Part shown: positions 25,303 to 33,205 of the stretch, piece by piece
Layout of the letters: each line of letters opens with the position of its first letter
How positions within the stretch are numbered: the stretch's first letter is position 1
Source: Alphaproteobacteria bacterium SO-S41
GTDB lineage: Bacteria; Pseudomonadota; Alphaproteobacteria; Micropepsales; Micropepsaceae
Assembly (NCBI GenBank): GCA_019670725.1
Contig: AP024629.1
Span: forward strand, 1,054,001 to 1,118,000
Direction of reading: 5' to 3'
DNA: 64,000 nt
The notes under the pieces: generated by a model
Told to the model about the DNA's origin: nothing
The model's database searches: none
What the model saw: the letters and a program-made list of their open reading frames with translations, nothing else
Program-made: the position numbers and the translations under genes

Positions 25303-27237
25303 TCAGACGGCGCCGCGCACGGCCTGCAGGCTGGTCTTCGCGAGGCCCGGCCGTGTCGCGGCGCGCGGCGCGCCGGCATCGTTCGCCGGCGTCGCCGACG
25401 GCTTCTTGCGCGCGCCTTCTTCCTCGAACAACTCGGCCAGCTTCTCGGTCATCGCGCCGCCCAACTGCTCGGCGTCCACGATGGTGACGGCACGACGGTA
25501 ATAGCGCGTCACGTCATGGCCGATGCCGATGGCGAGCAGTTCGACCGGCGAGCGCGTCTCGATATCCTCGATGACCGCGCGGAGATGGCGCTCCAGATAG
25601 TTGCCGGCATTCACCGACAGCGTGGAATCGTCCACCGGCGCGCCGTCCGAAATCACCATCAGGATGCGGCGCTGCTCGCTGCGGCCGAGCAGGCGGTTAT
25701 GCGCCCAGATCAGCGCCTCACCGTCGATGTTCTCCTTCAGCAACCCCTCGCGCATCATCAGCCCGAGATTGCGCCGCGCCCGGCGCCACGGCGCATCGGC
25801 CGGCTTGTAGACGATGTGGCGCAGATCGTTCAGGCGGCCGGGCTGGCCGGGCTTGCCGTCCTGGATCCACTTCTCGCGCGCCTGGCCGCCCTTCCACGCC
25901 TTGGTAGTGAAGCCGAGAATCTCGACCTTCACATTGCAGCGCTCCAGCGTGCGGGCGAGGATATCGGCGCACATCGCGGCGACGGTGATGGGACGCCCGC
26001 GCATCGAGCCCGAATTGTCGAGCAACAGCGTCACGATCGTGTCGCGGAACTTCATGTCCTTCTCGACCTTGAAGGACAGCGGATTGGTGGGATCGATGAT
26101 GACGCGCACGAGCCGCGCGGCATCCAGCATCCCTTCCTCCAGATCGAACTCCCAGTTGCGGGTCTGCTTTGCCATCAAGCGGCGCTGCAGGCGGTTGGCG
26201 AGCCGCGTCACCACGCCCTGCATGGCGGCCAGCTGCTGATCGAGATAGGCGCGCAACCGCGTCAGCTCATCGGCATCGCAGAGATCGTCAGCGCCGATCA
26301 CCTCGTCATGCGCGGTCGAGAAAATCTTGTAGGCCGGCTCGTTCGGCTTGTCCGGCAGGTTCTGGTTCGGGCGCTGTGGCTGGGTGCCGTCGTCCTCGGC
26401 CTCCTGCTCGTCCTCTCCGGACATTTCTTCGGAATCGATCTCGACCGTCTGCTGGTCGTCGTCCTGCGGCTGGCCTTCCTGGAACTCGACCTCTTCGGAG
26501 GACGAGCCCTGCGGCTCCTCGCTCTCGCCGGATTCCTGCTGCTGCTGGTCCTGCTCGGAAGAGTCGTTGTCGCTGTCCTCGTTCGACTCGTCGTTCTCGT
26601 TCTCGCCCAGCTCGTCGCCGAGATCGAGATCGCGCAGCACGGTCCGCATGATCTTCGCGAAGGCCTGCTGGTCGTGCTCCTGCTCGACCAGGCGCTTCAG
26701 ATCGCCCGCCGCGCGCTCCTCGATGAAGGGGCGCCACAGATCGACGATGCGCTGAGCTGACTTCGGCGGCGCGCGTCCCGTCACGGTCTCGCGCACCAGC
26801 AGCGCGACGGCATCGGCGAGCGGCGCGTCGGCGCGGTCCTTGATCTTGGCGTAGCCCTTGCCGGCGTAGCGGCTCTCCAGCACGGCGGCGAGATTGTCGC
26901 TCATGCCCGTCATGGCATTGGCGCCGATCGCGTCGATCCGCGCCGCCTCGACGGCGTCGAAGATCGTCTTGGCGTTCGGCCCGGTCGGGCTGAACTGGGC
27001 GTGCAGCTTCTCGTCATGGAAGGCGAGTTTCAGGCCGAACGAGTCGGCCTGGCCGCGCACGATCGCGACATCCGCCGCCGGCAGGTCGCGAGAGGGGACG
27101 GGCAGGCGGGCGCGGATGCCCTTCAGGGCCGGCGGCTCGGTGCCGTAGGTGACCGTGAGTTCCGGCTCGGCGGCGATCGAGCGCGTCGTCTGCGCCACCG
27201 CCCGCTTGAACCGTTCGACCTGATTTTCCGCTTTCAT
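25303..27237 (-). CDS. cobT: Aerobic cobaltochelatase subunit CobT
   Basis: 644 residues. An N-terminal helical part, a strongly acidic linker (runs of Glu, Asp, Ser and Gln, about residues 210-290) and a C-terminal von Willebrand A domain with the MIDAS motif DNSGSMRG near residue 405. With CobS (32213-33205) and CobN it forms the ATP-dependent complex inserting cobalt into hydrogenobyrinic acid a,c-diamide in aerobic B12 synthesis. CobT and CobS are normally adjacent; here five plus-strand genes and one secreted-protein gene separate them. CobN is not in the window. Confidence 0.95.
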
Positions 27238-27360: not shown

Positions 27361-27801
27361 ATGACCCCCACCGACCCGATCCCTGCCGAGGCCGCCATCG
27401 TCACCAAGGACGTCACCCTCAACGCCCCGCCGGCTCTCGTCTGGGCGGCGCTGCGCGATTTCGGCGCGGTCGATACCCGCCTCGCGCCCGGCTTCGTCAC
27501 CGCATGCCGCCTCGAAGGCACCGCGCGGATCTGCACCTTCGCCAACGGCTCGACCGCCCGTGAGGAACTGGTCGCCTGGGACGACGCCGCCCGGCGCCTC
27601 ACCTACACGATCCCGTCGGAGCGGATGACCTGGCACCGCGCCACGGCCGAGGTGCACGACGCGCCCGGCGGCGGCACGCGGTTCGTCTGGACCACCGCCG
27701 TCGCGCCGGCCGTCATCGCCGATTACATCTCGCCCCAGATGGATCTGGGCGTCGCGGCGATGAGCCGCACCCTGGAGGCAGCGGCGCGAGAATCAGCGTA
27801 A
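27361..27801 (+). CDS. SRPBCC (START-like) family protein
   Basis: 146 residues with a START/Bet v1-like ligand-binding fold: VTLNAPPALVWAALRDFGAVD at the N terminus, then a strand rich core (TWHRATAEVHD, TRFVWTTAV) and a C-terminal helix. Such proteins bind small hydrophobic molecules in a cavity; no ligand is implied. AGGAG six bases upstream fixes the ATG at 27361. It is divergent from CobT and 44 bp upstream of the sensor gene, so it may be co-transcribed with the sensor/channel pair. Confidence 0.88.
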   Translation: MTPTDPIPAEAAIVTKDVTLNAPPALVWAALRDFGAVDTRLAPGFVTACRLEGTARICTFANGSTAREELVAWDDAARRLTYTIPSERMTWHRATAEVHDAPGGGTRFVWTTAVAPAVIADYISPQMDLGVAAMSRTLEAAARESA

Positions 27802-27845: not shown

Positions 27846-28970
27846 ATGAGATTTCGCACAAGCGCGCCGCTGGCGCTGATCCTCACGGCGGCGGTCGTGG
27901 TCGGCTTGCTCACCTTCATGTCCAACCGGCTGTTCTCCGGCCTCACCGACGAGGTCGAGACCGGCCAGTTCGAGCTGATGCAGTCGATCCTGGAAAATGC
28001 GCTCAGCGGCGCTGAATCGAAGGCGCTCGCCCGCGCCGAGATGATCGCTTCGCTGCCGACCACGGTCACCCTCATGGCGACGCAGAACCGCGAGGGCCTG
28101 CTCGCCGAGTACGCGGGGATGTTCGCGATCCAGAAGGAAAAATACGGCGTCGATCAGGCGCAGTTCCACGTGCCGCCCGCGACCTCGCTGCTGCGTCTCC
28201 AGGCGCCCGACAAGTTCGGCGACGATCTCTCCAAGTCCCGCCCGCTGGTCTTTGCCGCCAATCGCGACAAGGCCGTGAAGAAGGGCTTTGCCGTCGCCCG
28301 CACCGGCCCGGCGATCTTCGGTGTCGCGCCGATCAAGGACGCCGCCGGCACTCATCTCGGCACCTTCGAGTTCGGTATCGACTTCGGCAGTTTACTGGAC
28401 GGTTTGAAGGCCTCGTTCGGCCTGGAGCTGGCGGTCTTCATCGAGGAAAAGCCGCTGCGCGATTTCGGCACCGGCGTCGATCCCGCCCGCCTCGCCGACC
28501 AGAACCGCGTCGGCCGCTTCATCCGCTGGCACGCGACCAACCTCGCGCTGGTGAGCGAACTCGCGGGGGATGCCGACATTTCGGTCGTCAACGAGCCCAC
28601 CACCTATGTCCGCACGGCCGAGGGCACGCCCTATGGCGTCCTTCTCTTCCCGCTGAAGAACGCCGCCGGCGATGCGCTTGGTGTCCTCGTCGTCGCCCGC
28701 GATTTCTCCGGCTCGCGCGCCGCCTCTGGCCGGTCGCTGGTCTGGCAGATCGCCTTCGCGGTTTTCGCCGTTGTCATCCTCGCGGGCACGGCGATCGTCG
28801 TCGTCCGCGGCCGGGTGCTCCGGCCCCTCACCGTGCTCGACGCGCGCCTGACTGCTTTCGCGGCGGGCGAGCGCAAGACACTGCTTGAGGACACCGACCG
28901 CTTCCCGCCGGAGATCGAAAGCCTCGCCGCTCATGTCGAACGGGCGGCCTGGACGGAGCGCGGCGCGTGA
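27846..28970 (+). CDS. dCache-HAMP membrane sensor without output domain
   Basis: 374 residues: membrane span 8-26, a periplasmic double-Cache-like domain (about 30-295), span 299-321 and a HAMP-like segment with Pro327 (LRPLTVLDARLTAFAAGE) and PEIESLA (355-361). The stretch QFHVPPATSLLRLQAPDKFG (107-124 region) is characteristic of the dCache_3 sensor class of chemoreceptors and histidine kinases. The protein stops right after HAMP: no kinase, methyl-accepting or cyclase domain follows. The stop overlaps the GTG start of the channel gene by four bases. I infer that it senses a periplasmic ligand and may act through the channel. Confidence 0.82.
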   Translation: MRFRTSAPLALILTAAVVVGLLTFMSNRLFSGLTDEVETGQFELMQSILENALSGAESKALARAEMIASLPTTVTLMATQNREGLLAEYAGMFAIQKEKYGVDQAQFHVPPATSLLRLQAPDKFGDDLSKSRPLVFAANRDKAVKKGFAVARTGPAIFGVAPIKDAAGTHLGTFEFGIDFGSLLDGLKASFGLELAVFIEEKPLRDFGTGVDPARLADQNRVGRFIRWHATNLALVSELAGDADISVVNEPTTYVRTAEGTPYGVLLFPLKNAAGDALGVLVVARDFSGSRAASGRSLVWQIAFAVFAVVILAGTAIVVVRGRVLRPLTVLDARLTAFAAGERKTLLEDTDRFPPEIESLAAHVERAAWTERGA

Positions 28971-30043
28971 GACGCACGCTCTCCGTCCTCGCGCTCGTCT
29001 GGCTCGCGCTGACGGCCTTCGCGCTGCCGGCCGCGGCACAGATCGGGCTTCCCGCCGACAAAGGCCTGCCCGTCGTCGTACGCATCGGCACGACCTTCGT
29101 TGAGCTCCAGTCTTTCGACCAGGACGCAGGCACCTTCACCGCGACGGTCGATGTCCGCGTCATCTGGGAAGACCTGCGCCTGCGCATGACGCCAGATCAC
29201 GCGCTCGATCCGCCGTTGATCTATCGCGGCACGGACGCGACCGACCGGCTCCAGGGCCTCTGGACCCCGCCGATCGAGCTCATCAACCAGGTGGGCGATG
29301 CCGCGCATACCGAGATTGCGCTGCGCACCTATCCCGACGGCCGCGCCGAGCTGATGCAGCGCACGACCGCCACCTTCTCCACCCCCTTCGACGTCACGCG
29401 CTTCCCCTTCGACCGCCAGAAGCTGCAGGTCGAAATCGCGACCCGGCTTGAGCCTGCCAGCAATGTCGTGCTCCAAACCCGCCAGGACGATCTCGATTTC
29501 AGCCGCGCCGCCTCGGGCGCCGAGCTCGAAGGCTGGACGCTCGGCCTCGTCGACATGCGCAGTGTGCCGCTGCCCGGCTGGTACGGCGCCTCGCACAGCC
29601 GCATCGTCGCCAGCCTCGCGATCACCCGCAATCCCGCGAACCTGATCGCGGCGATGTTCATTCCGCTCTTCGCCTCGCTGCTGATCCCGATGCTGACCAT
29701 CTGGCTCAACCGCATCGAGGACGGCGTCTTTCAGATCGAGACGTTCGAGTTGGTGAACCTCATCATCGGCGGGCTCTTCGCGGTCATCGCGCTCAACTTC
29801 ACGGTCAATGCGGACTACGCCGTGCTGTCGGCGGGCGACAACTCGGTCAGTCAGCTCTTTGCGCTGAACTATGTGACGCTGGGGATCTGTCTGCTCGTGA
29901 ACATCCTGTTCTATCGCTACCGCGTCTTTGAGACGACGCTGGGGCGCTATGGGCAGGAGCAGCTCTTCCTGGTGCTCGCCTGGGCGATCCCCGTCATCGT
30001 CCTCACCGCCGCCGTCGCCATCGTCGCGGTGGCGCTGGTCTAG
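28967..30043 (+). CDS. Pentameric ligand-gated ion channel (prokaryotic Cys-loop-like)
   Basis: 358 residues: signal peptide (to AAAQ25), a beta-sandwich ligand-binding domain (about 35-220) and four membrane spans (about 225-247, 260-280, 295-317, 333-357). Family landmarks are TFTATVDVRVIWEDLRL, WTPPIELIN and the Pro-loop FDVTRFPFDRQKLQVEI (141-157), which in bacteria lacks the two cysteines of animal receptors, as here. It should assemble as a pentamer in the inner membrane, relatives being GLIC and ELIC. GTG start inside the preceding sensor's stop. The selectivity region (span 2) is divergent; ion preference cannot be read. Confidence 0.87.
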   Translation: MRRTLSVLALVWLALTAFALPAAAQIGLPADKGLPVVVRIGTTFVELQSFDQDAGTFTATVDVRVIWEDLRLRMTPDHALDPPLIYRGTDATDRLQGLWTPPIELINQVGDAAHTEIALRTYPDGRAELMQRTTATFSTPFDVTRFPFDRQKLQVEIATRLEPASNVVLQTRQDDLDFSRAASGAELEGWTLGLVDMRSVPLPGWYGASHSRIVASLAITRNPANLIAAMFIPLFASLLIPMLTIWLNRIEDGVFQIETFELVNLIIGGLFAVIALNFTVNADYAVLSAGDNSVSQLFALNYVTLGICLLVNILFYRYRVFETTLGRYGQEQLFLVLAWAIPVIVLTAAVAIVAVALV

Positions 30044-30165: not shown

Positions 30166-30211
30166 TCATTATTAAACAAAGTCGTTGATCAACAAGATTG
30201 TTGAATAATGA
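30166..30211. promoter_or_regulatory. 46-bp palindromic operator over the ArsR start codon
   Basis: Centred between 30188 and 30189 on the perfect GTTGATCAAC; outer arms TCATTATT and AATAATGA match exactly, and 19 of 23 base pairs overall are symmetric. The right arm includes the ArsR ATG (30208-30210). This is the size and AT-richness expected of an ArsR-family operator, implying autorepression. Confidence 0.7.
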
Positions 30212-30558
30212 TCCAGGCCGACCCCCTCTCCCAGACGCTCTCAGCCCTCGCCGATCCCACGCGGCGCGCTCTGCTCGCCCGGCTCGCGCAGGGCGAGGCC
30301 AGCGTGAACGAGCTTGCCGAGCCGTTCGACATCACCCTCCAGGCGGTCTCACGCCATCTCAAGGTGCTGGAAGGGGCGGGGCTGATCACGCGCACCCGCA
30401 CCGCCCAGTGGCGGCCCTGCAAGCTGGCTCCGGAACCGCTGAAGGCGCTCGACGGCTGGCTCGAGCACTACCGTCGCTTCTGGGACGACAGCTTCGACCG
30501 CATGGCCGCCTATCTCGCCGACCTTCAGAAAGGACATCCCGATGACCGTTCAAACTGA
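30208..30558 (+). CDS. ArsR-family transcriptional regulator
   Basis: 116 residues: winged helix-turn-helix ALADPTRRALLARLAQGEAS, then VNELAEPFDITLQAVSRHLKVLE and a beta wing (RTRTAQWRPCKL). No metal-binding CxC motif is present, so it belongs to the metal-free group typically paired with AHSA1/START genes, as here where its end overlaps the SRPBCC gene by 17 bases. The palindrome covering its own start codon argues for autoregulation of the three-gene operon (ArsR, AHSA1, GST). Confidence 0.93.
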   Translation: MIQADPLSQTLSALADPTRRALLARLAQGEASVNELAEPFDITLQAVSRHLKVLEGAGLITRTRTAQWRPCKLAPEPLKALDGWLEHYRRFWDDSFDRMAAYLADLQKGHPDDRSN

Positions 30559-31024
30559 AATGCGTCCCGTCGCGGACGACGAACTGCTGATCGTCAGGAC
30601 ATTCGATGCGCCGGCCGCTCTGGTATTCCGCATCTGGGAGGACCAGTCCCACGCGATCCGCTGGTGGGGTCCCAAGGACTTCACCACGCCGCATCTGGAA
30701 ATGGACTTCCGCCCCGGCGGCAAATGGCGCGCCTGCATCGCCTCGCCCACCCACGGCGAAAGCTGGATGAGCGGCGTCTATCGCGAGATCGTCCGCGACC
30801 AGCGCATTGTCTTCACCTTTCGCTGGGAGCAGGGGCGGGATCCCGGCCACGAGTCGCTGATCACCGTCACGCTCACCGAAGAGAACGGCCGCACGACGCA
30901 GACCTTCCATCAGGCGCCGTTCCCGACGGTCGAAAGCCGCGACAGCCATCTCGGCGGCTGGACCCAGTTCGTTGACAAGGAAGGCGCCTATGCCGAGCGC
31001 CTCGCCAAGGAGGAAGCCGCATGA
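30542..31024 (+). CDS. AHSA1/SRPBCC-family protein
   Basis: 160 residues of the AHSA1/START-like fold: LLIVRTFDAPAALVFRIWED, then HAIRWWGPKDFT, a DFRPGGKWRACI strand, and a C-terminal DSHLGGWTQFVDKEGAYAERL helix. This subgroup is regularly encoded directly after an ArsR regulator and is thought to bind or modify small hydrophobic molecules; the ligand is unknown. Overlaps the regulator by 17 bases and the GST start by four. Confidence 0.9.
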   Translation: MTVQTEMRPVADDELLIVRTFDAPAALVFRIWEDQSHAIRWWGPKDFTTPHLEMDFRPGGKWRACIASPTHGESWMSGVYREIVRDQRIVFTFRWEQGRDPGHESLITVTLTEENGRTTQTFHQAPFPTVESRDSHLGGWTQFVDKEGAYAERLAKEEAA

Positions 31025-31659
31025 TCACCGTCTCCGCTTTTCGCTGGGTGCCGCCCTTCGCCCAAGGCCTGGTGCGCGATCTTCGCGTCCGCTGGGCGCT
31101 GGAAGAGGCGGGCCTTCCCTATGAAGCCAGGATCATCGGCTTCGAGGATCAGGCGACGCCCGGCTATCGCGCGCTGCAGCCGTTCGGCCAGGTTCCCGCC
31201 TACGAGGAAAACGGGCTCACCCTCTTCGAATCCGGCGCGATCGTTCTTCACATCGCCGCAAGATCCGAAAACTTGATGCCCGCCGATGCAGCGTCGCGAG
31301 CGCGCGCGATGACGTGGGTCATCTCCGCACTCAATACCGTCGAACCGCCCATCGCCAATCTCGCCGAGATCGATCTCTTCCCCGGCGATGCGGCGGTCAA
31401 GGCAGCGCGCCGGCCCGAGGTCGAGCAGCGCGTGCGCCTGCGCCTTGGCGAAGTGGCCGAGGTGTTGGGGACGCGCGACTATCTGGAAGACCGCTTCACC
31501 GCCGGCGATCTGATGATGACGACGGTGCTGCGCAATCTGCGCCAGACCGACATTGTCGCATCCTTCCCGACGCTCGCGGCCTATCAGGCCCGCTGCGAAG
31601 CGCGCCCGGCTTTCACGAAAGCGCTGGATGCTCAGATGGCGGTATTCGCCGCAGCGTAG
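31021..31659 (+). CDS. Glutathione S-transferase family protein
   Basis: 212 residues with an N-terminal thioredoxin-like domain (PYEARIIGFEDQAT, GQVPAYEENGLTLFESGAIVLHIA, the last containing the glutathione-gamma-Glu binding ES motif) and an all-helical C-terminal domain with the N-capping-box pattern LEDRFTAGDLMM. The catalytic Ser/Cys of the first helix is not obvious. ATG overlaps the AHSA1 stop (ATGA), so it is translationally coupled; likely a detoxification partner of the ArsR-controlled operon. Confidence 0.9.
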   Translation: MITVSAFRWVPPFAQGLVRDLRVRWALEEAGLPYEARIIGFEDQATPGYRALQPFGQVPAYEENGLTLFESGAIVLHIAARSENLMPADAASRARAMTWVISALNTVEPPIANLAEIDLFPGDAAVKAARRPEVEQRVRLRLGEVAEVLGTRDYLEDRFTAGDLMMTTVLRNLRQTDIVASFPTLAAYQARCEARPAFTKALDAQMAVFAAA

Positions 31660-32212: not shown

Positions 32213-33205
32213 TCAGGCGACCATCACCTTCGCCGCGCTCTCGGGCAATTCCTCGCCGAAGCAGCGCTGGTAGAACTCCGCAACCGTCGCCCGCTCCAGT
32301 TCGTCGCACTTGTTCAGGAACGTCAGACGGAAGGCGAAACCGATATCGCCGAAGATCGTTGCGTTCTCTGCCCAGGTGATGACCGTGCGCGGGCTCATCA
32401 CCGTGGAGATGTCGCCATTAATGAACGCTGAACGGGTCAGGTCGGCGACGCGCACCATGGCGGCGAGCTTCTTCTTGCCCTCCGGCGTCTGGTAGGCCTT
32501 CGACTTCGCCAGCACGATCTCGACTTCCTTGTCGTGCGCCAGATAGTTCAGCGTCGTGACGATGGACCAGCGGTCCATCTGGCCCTGATTGATCTGCTGC
32601 GTGCCGTGATAGAGACCCGTCGTATCGCCGAGGCCGATCGTGTTGGTCGTCGAGAACAGGCGGAAGCCGCTATGCGGGCGGATCACGCGGTTCTGGTCCA
32701 GCAGGGTCAGCTTGCCGCTGACTTCCAGCACGCGCTGGATCACGAACATGACGTCGGGACGGCCGGCGTCATATTCGTCGAAGACCAGCGCGACGGGGCG
32801 CTGCAGCGTCCAGGGCAGAATGCCTTCGCGGAATTCGGTGACCTGCTTGCCTTCCTTCAGGACGATCGCGTCCTTGCCGACCAGGTCGATGCGGCTGATG
32901 TGGCTGTCGAGGTTGACGCGGATGCAGGGCCAGTTGAGGCGCGCCGCAACCTGCTCGATATGGGTCGACTTGCCCGTGCCATGATAGCCCTGGACCATGA
33001 CGCGGCGGTTGAAGGCGAAACCGGCGAGGATCGCCAGCGTCGTCTCGCGGTCGAAGCGATAGGTCTCGTCGAGATCGGGGACATAGGAGTTCGGCTGCGA
33101 GAAGGCCGGCACCGTCATCTTGGTGTCGATACCGAAGACCGTCTTCACATCGACGGTCGTGTCGGGCTGCGCCTCGGTGCTGAGGCCCTCGGACATCTCG
33201 GACAT
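32213..33205 (-). CDS. cobS: Aerobic cobaltochelatase subunit CobS
   Basis: 330-residue AAA+ ATPase: Walker A GYHGTGKS (73-80), Walker [10 protein letters not shown] (138-146), sensor/arginine-finger region [23 protein letters not shown]. CobS hexamers with CobT power the CobN chelatase in aerobic cobalamin synthesis. The N terminus MSEMSEG offers two possible Met starts. It is 80 bp downstream of the J-domain gene, an arrangement common in Hyphomicrobiales (BolA, J-domain, CobS, CobT). Confidence 0.96.

Follow-up and report, generated by a model that had tools for sequence, protein, structure and literature searches.

A dCache_3 membrane protein without an output domain, conserved beside one clade of bacterial pentameric ligand-gated ion channels, as their candidate sensor subunit

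In the 64,000-nucleotide stretch of DNA analysed here (the window; positions 1,054,001-1,118,000 of the genome of Alphaproteobacteria bacterium SO-S41, a single contig of 4.44 Mb), a gene for a dCache_3 membrane sensor ends without any recognizable output domain, and its stop codon overlaps the start of a gene for a pentameric ligand-gated ion channel (pLGIC). To what does such a sensor report? A preliminary description of this DNA had proposed that the output of the sensor is the channel itself, reached through a HAMP segment. We observed that pairing with the sensor gene is a conserved feature, beyond chance, of one pLGIC clade. The functional coupling proposed in that description, with the channel as output, is strongly supported; its HAMP relay is not.

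The sensor gene, delimited as an open reading frame and by Pfam, occupies positions 27846-28970 (all features of the pair lie on the forward strand) and encodes 374 amino acids. Hydropathy analysis gave two strong hydrophobic segments, predicted to be membrane spans 1 (residues 7-25, 27864-27920) and 2 (residues 302-320, 28749-28805), and a third, weak segment at residues 265-283, inside the Cache domain. The predicted periplasmic dCache_3 domain (PF14827, E 7.2e-26) covers residues 49-286 (27990-28703), and a cytoplasmic tail of 54 residues follows the second span (28806-28967). No kinase, methyl-accepting chemotaxis protein (MCP) or cyclase family was found in the protein by Pfam at E values up to 1, so that the preliminary description was correct on this point and in its coordinates. 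A sequence search of the PDB with the window sensor alone yielded zero matches (E up to 1), and a 16-row sensor profile yielded weak partial matches, the top one to a histidine kinase (E 5e-4) and the following ones to CitA sensors.

The channel gene (28967-30043) is predicted to encode a complete Cys-less (Pro-loop) pLGIC of 358 amino acids, as had been described. Its layout consists of a signal-like segment, a ligand-binding domain (PF02931, Neur_chan_LBD, E 1.9e-13; residues 29-223, 29051-29635) in which alignment locates the Pro-loop motif FPFD (residues 146-149, 29402-29413), and four membrane segments recognized by hydropathy: M1 (29645-29701), M2 (29750-29806, also aligned, and pore-lining by homology), M3 (29855-29911) and M4 (29984-30040). 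In the PDB, phmmer matched the window channel to 9ftg/6v4a (DeCLIC; E 2.6e-15) and to chains of GLIC (Glr4197; about 1e-13). The start codon of the channel lies within the tetranucleotide GTGA (28967-28970), which also contains the TGA stop of the sensor, again as first described, and a GGAG sequence inside the sensor gene, 8 bases before the channel start (28955-28958), may serve in ribosome binding.

Fifteen further loci were each picked by channel sequence alone, their neighbours being examined only afterwards; together with the window they give 16 strong channels, which include the seeds of the profiles used (three rows of alignment A1 and six rows of profile A3). A dCache_3 gene was located directly upstream and on the same strand in 16 of 16 cases. 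In 15 of these pairs the sensor stop and an in-frame channel start share 4 bases (ATGA or GTGA); in the other one (genome G1019) the overlapping ATG does not lie in the frame of the channel, which would begin at a downstream TTG or contain an indel. All 16 sensors matched PF14827 and carried a strong hydrophobic segment at each end. Apart from the window, 13 of the loci come from its own class, one (G501) from another class and one (L007) from a Burkholderiales metagenome-assembled genome, and the conservation therefore extends beyond a single genome; confinement to one genome was what the preliminary description had named as grounds for abandoning its proposal. In contrast, the tabulation of pLGIC neighbours that it had recommended gave no dCache_3 gene beside any of 25 distant pLGICs, searched first with a sensor profile of six rows (E 1e-4) and then with that of 16 rows (E 1e-5), in flanks that were mostly 1.5 kb on each side (about 5 kb for three; a piece of 1,990 bases for L051).

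These channels were recovered as follows. The window channel protein, used as query on 96 genomes of its order, identified three genomes with the channel (window, G065 and G067); in 386 genomes sampled from the window's class, the search recovered the window channel itself and three distant pLGICs. The three-channel alignment A1 retrieved the L007 locus from genome contigs and, from a 397-genome sample of the phylum, the window, G501 and G726, the last from the window's class. The six-channel profile A3 gave 30 pLGIC matches in 27 of 397 genomes of G726's order, including 11 strong ones (E 5e-71 or better) in ten genomes, namely G726 and the new G984, G1013, G898 (two), G982, G1186, G861, G1019, G956 and G979. 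Thirty-five genomes of G501's class held the G501 channel and three distant pLGICs, and no new locus emerged from 48 genomes of G501's order or from 12 genomes of the family of G898. It should be noted that about five or fewer candidates were scored per genome in the phylum sample and in both searches of G726's order, so that weak members may be missed there. When three of the 16 channels served as tblastn queries, no plasmid-borne relatives were found, and 88 pattern hits in viral contigs included zero relatives. The two pair copies in G898 (L075 and L076) are divergent and lie about 160 kb apart. Among the distant pLGICs, L049, L050 and L051 lie in long open frames (570-718 amino acids), of which the channel takes up the later part; for the N-terminal part of L049, Pfam gave zero domains at E 1e-4.

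Searches that began from the sensor agreed with those that began from the channel. In the 96 genomes of the window's order, the 16-row sensor profile (E 1e-25) had 3 matches, all beside channels and in the three genomes already known to carry the channel. For G726's order, the sampling settings of the channel search were used again to draw 397 genomes, and the profile (E 1e-35) had 71 matches in 60 of them. The 11 best of these (E 8e-115 or better) were exactly the 11 channel-adjacent genes; the other 60 were weaker (E 4e-67 or worse), 59 of them lying in frames of 623-808 amino acids, stop-to-stop lengths that overstate gene length, and one being cut by a contig end. At these thresholds and in these samples, each sensor has one channel and each channel one sensor. 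All 16 paired sensors end 8-66 residues past the second span and the window's genome is one contig, so it is unlikely that the window sensor was truncated in assembly, or that its frame would continue into an output domain in a corrected assembly, as the preliminary description had allowed.

The descent of the two genes is largely parallel. In a channel tree of 41 rows, the 16 paired channels formed one clade (100/99) with two deep groups, one of six (window, G065, G067, G984, L007 and G501; 100/100) and one of ten (100/99). Both groups reappeared in a sensor tree of 23 rows, with support of 100/99 for the six and 81/86 for the ten, and so, largely, did the subgroups. In three close pairs both genes showed purifying selection, the ratios of nonsynonymous to synonymous substitution rates (sensor/channel) being 0.135/0.093, 0.088/0.078 and 0.198/0.147. 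The pair is sparse and crosses classes, and for this reason it seems to have been lost or moved as a unit.

What the sensors have kept, and what they have not, bears on the route of the signal. By its sequence, the sensor is related to the dCache_3 chemoreceptors and lacks their MCP signalling domain: of seven unpaired dCache_3 relatives from the paired genomes, used as the outgroup, five were scanned with Pfam (L070 and L072, cut by locus ends, were left out), and 4 of the 5 are dCache_3-HAMP-MCPsignal chemoreceptors, the fifth having dCache_3 only, while MCPsignal is not among the families matched by the 16 paired sensors (E up to 0.01). The tail of the window sensor had zero Pfam HAMP matches at E values up to 10, and is HAMP-like at most; among the 16 whole sensors one HAMP match was found, at E 0.0058. 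Moreover, five of the sensors end 8, 8, 10, 11 and 21 residues past span 2, and these short forms occur at two places in the tree. With HAMP sub-threshold or absent and five tails reduced to 8-21 residues, we rejected HAMP-mediated output as the conserved route, and with it the transmitting role that had been assigned to this segment. Only the Cache domain and two spans remain in every pair, and for this reason the most likely path of the signal to the channel is a lateral one, within the periplasm or the membrane.

The pairing points to a sensor that controls the opening of the channel. We consider it moderately probable that the two genes are one inherited unit, encoding a pLGIC and a dedicated ligand-sensing Cache accessory subunit that modulates or gates it. 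The sensor would bind a small periplasmic ligand while sitting beside the channel in the membrane, and its change of shape would be passed on through contacts of the periplasmic parts or the membrane spans, not through a cytoplasmic HAMP. Ligand binding could then open, close or sensitize the pore, with a resulting change in membrane potential or ion entry. The pore is probably cation-selective, as judged from an acidic residue that precedes M2 directly in 13 of the 16 paired channels, a position that we read by GLIC numbering. Somewhat short of an even chance, in our estimate, is the further proposal that this is a two-protein ligand-gated channel whose gating is set by a former chemoreceptor Cache partner rather than by the orthosteric site, and hence an independent counterpart of alpha2delta, the accessory of animal voltage-gated calcium channels.

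Several observations weigh against a dedicated accessory subunit of this kind. Tails of 51-66 residues, HAMP-like in character, persist in eleven of the 16 sensors, and 4 of 7 tails scanned match HAMP below threshold (best 19.2 bits, against a cut-off of 25); some role of the longer tails is possible in the sensors that keep them. Conserved operons can also join proteins of the same pathway that make no physical contact. The sensor-channel distance correlation of 0.907 (permutation maximum 0.595; 0 of 20,000 permutations reached 0.907) is in part the shared descent of linked genes, and linked inheritance alone suffices to produce it. All paired sensors fall on one side of a branch, but that branch is weakly supported (64/70), and two separate captures of a Cache gene are therefore possible. 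Finally, two structure models computed from two-row alignments had mean pLDDT (predicted local distance difference test) values of 39 and 51, too poor to use.

Residue comparisons bear on the alternatives. P147 and D149 of the beta6-beta7 loop and the pre-M1 R221, which are hallmarks of the pLGIC superfamily, were kept in all 16 paired channels and in 20/20 distant ones (GLIC is not among the 20; L041, L042, L044, L050 and L051, weak or short matches, were excluded here, all 25 being kept in the tree and the neighbour count). Among the residues specific to the paired clade, defined by presence in at least 15 of the 16 paired channels and in no more than 3 of the 20 distant ones, are D175, S179, G204, W205, F231, A236, A272 and T279; Gly204-Trp205 (29576-29581) was present in 16/16 paired channels, and its two residues in 1 and 0 of the 20. 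From the strand order known for the family, we place D175 and S179 in loop F and G204 and W205 in loop C, at the usual agonist site. The retention of these four residues near loops F and C would suit a Cache protein that concentrates or pre-senses a ligand, the channel then binding the same solute at its own site. Such a role was proposed for Cache and periplasmic binding protein (PBP) partners of bacterial pLGICs in the relevant passages of Tasneem et al. 2004 (PMC549065). A concentrator has no need of two membrane spans, yet all 16 sensors have two, and we regard this explanation as unlikely.

Alternatively, the sensor might have no sensory role and instead assist the channel in folding, assembly or trafficking. 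Obligate pairing and the start/stop overlap would fit a chaperone-like subunit, and alpha2delta subunits, which are Cache proteins, also affect trafficking. Against this, Arg117 (28194-28196) and Arg132 (28239-28241), present in 7/7 of the unpaired dCache_3 relatives, are unchanged in 16/16 paired sensors, and the membrane-distal half of the Cache domain is the best conserved region of the sensor (39% mean pairwise identity among the 11 long-tail sensors; the tail, at 24%, is the least conserved). D127 and K188 are likewise invariant in the paired sensors, each occurring in 3 of 7 relatives, and all four residues may contribute to ligand binding. A factor without sensory function seems distinctly improbable to us in view of these patterns.

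It might also be supposed that the sensor has its effect in trans, by way of chemoreceptor arrays or of some other signalling protein, the channel being merely co-transcribed. The chemoreceptor architecture of four of the five scanned relatives favours this idea, as do 17-47 MCPsignal matches (E 1e-10) in 10 of 14 paired genomes counted (the L007 genome was left out). However, pairs persist where there is a single match (G065, G984 and the genome of the window) and also where there are 0, in G067, whose genome is one contig with a listed completeness of 100%. A sensor working through MCP arrays could not work in G067, since MCPsignal has zero matches there; output through chemoreceptor arrays was rejected on this ground, and the idea that such channels serve chemotaxis is weakened. 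Considering also that HAMP is sub-threshold or cut away and that no other gene is widely common to the neighbourhoods, we find action in trans very hard to credit. The two genes might, lastly, be neighbours by chance, or the sensor might be part of a longer gene broken in assembly. Genes in bacterial operons often overlap by a few bases, but 16 of 16 loci from different families and classes, 15 with the same overlap, and the converse searches contradict this explanation so plainly that it can be dismissed.

The reading that we favour, a sensor subunit dedicated to its channel, can be compared with known systems. GLIC, the proton-gated channel of Gloeobacter, ranks first among the PDB matches of the 16-row channel profile (E about 1e-36, over nearly the full length) and is not known to have an accessory subunit. 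The dCache_3-HAMP-MCP chemoreceptors share with the paired sensors the Cache family and the two arginines; they differ in that the paired sensors are without MCPsignal and without HAMP above the Pfam cut-off. In DeCLIC, and in the Cache/MCP-N and PBP-I fusions, a periplasmic accessory module is likewise joined to a pLGIC, whereas the module here is a separate two-span dCache_3 membrane protein. Two DeCLIC papers (PMC9897478, PMC12664993), whose main texts do not contain the words 'cache' or 'operon', deal with an N-terminal domain that is fused to the channel.

A partnership of pLGIC and Cache is already in print for one case, Rhodopseudomonas. The pertinent passages of Tasneem et al. 2004 (PMC549065) report fusions of bacterial pLGICs to Cache domains, as well as one predicted operon, in Rhodopseudomonas, of a pLGIC and a stand-alone Cache gene, for which cooperation was proposed; bacterial pLGICs have thus not been described only as stand-alone channels, as the preliminary description had assumed. 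As in the window, a pLGIC of simple architecture there adjoins a separate Cache gene; the difference is that a single bacterium was reported in those passages (PMC549065), and that we describe 16 loci with analyses of overlap, HAMP and clade, among which G726 may be a relative. New beyond 2004 are the conservation of the pair, its two-way exclusivity in our samples, the single channel clade, the kinship of the sensor with chemoreceptors, and the eroded HAMP. In open-licence literature on bacterial pLGICs with a Cache partner or auxiliary subunit, only Tasneem et al. 2004 was found. According to the relevant parts of Jaiteh et al. 2016 (PMC4795631), domain association of pLGICs was shown at the genome level only, and no microbial pLGIC had been studied in vivo.

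With regard to alpha2delta, the families listed by Pfam for the sensors include neither VWA nor dCache_1, which make up its architecture. Its channel belongs to a superfamily other than the pLGICs. The likeness lies in a Cache-domain accessory of an ion channel, a parallel drawn in PMC549065 (see also Upadhyay et al. 2016, PMC4822843). In the ion-channel column (VWA_N, VGCC_alpha2) of the table in PMC4822843, 467 dCache_1 and no dCache_3 proteins are entered, the column being defined by calcium-channel domains.

Some features of the paired channels and of the surrounding DNA remain to be recorded. PF02931 was matched by 16/16 paired channels and PF02932 by 1/16, and at least one membrane segment fell below a simple hydropathy cut-off in 6/16. 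The G984 channel (L019, 1501-2865, reverse strand) has a proline-rich stretch of about 100 residues between the signal segment and the ligand-binding domain. Neighbourhoods were compared frame against frame over 22 kb for the window and 12-19 kb for the others (the G501 contig starts 0.4 kb upstream of the sensor). Frame clusters spanning more than 3 of the 16 neighbourhoods all fell for the most part within the pair, comprising its two genes and the shadow frames of these; the remaining frames with counterparts elsewhere were confined to two loci, nearly always close relatives (G065-G067, G956-G979, G861-G898), and in one case to three. In the window, a Polyketide_cyc2/START-like gene (27361-27801) lies on the same strand 44 bases upstream of the sensor and is possibly co-transcribed with it. 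Its suggested role as supplier of the ligand was rejected, since blastp and phmmer (E up to 1) gave 0 matches to it across the 15 remaining neighbourhoods. Downstream of the channel (30208-31659) are genes for an ArsR-type regulator, an AHSA1-domain protein and a glutathione S-transferase, with successive overlaps of 17 and 4 bases. CobT (25303-27237) and CobS (32213-33205), identified by Pfam, flank the region on the reverse strand; cobS and cobT are often adjacent in related bacteria, and the stretch between them, pair included, may be an insertion. A GGDEF diguanylate cyclase gene lies directly downstream of the Burkholderiales pair (L007, 7023-8213), and a frame similar to it lies downstream of the G861 pair (L079, 9128-13621).

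The ligands and roles of bacterial pLGICs have been largely unknown so far, and a separable, conserved sensor offers a handle on them, because a screen of its Cache domain in solution may reveal ligands, which can then be tried on the channel. If the proposed coupling is true, a chemoreceptor module would have been rewired from a chemotaxis kinase to an ion channel, and the pair would provide a simple system for heteromeric modulation in the superfamily of the nicotinic and GABA-A receptors.

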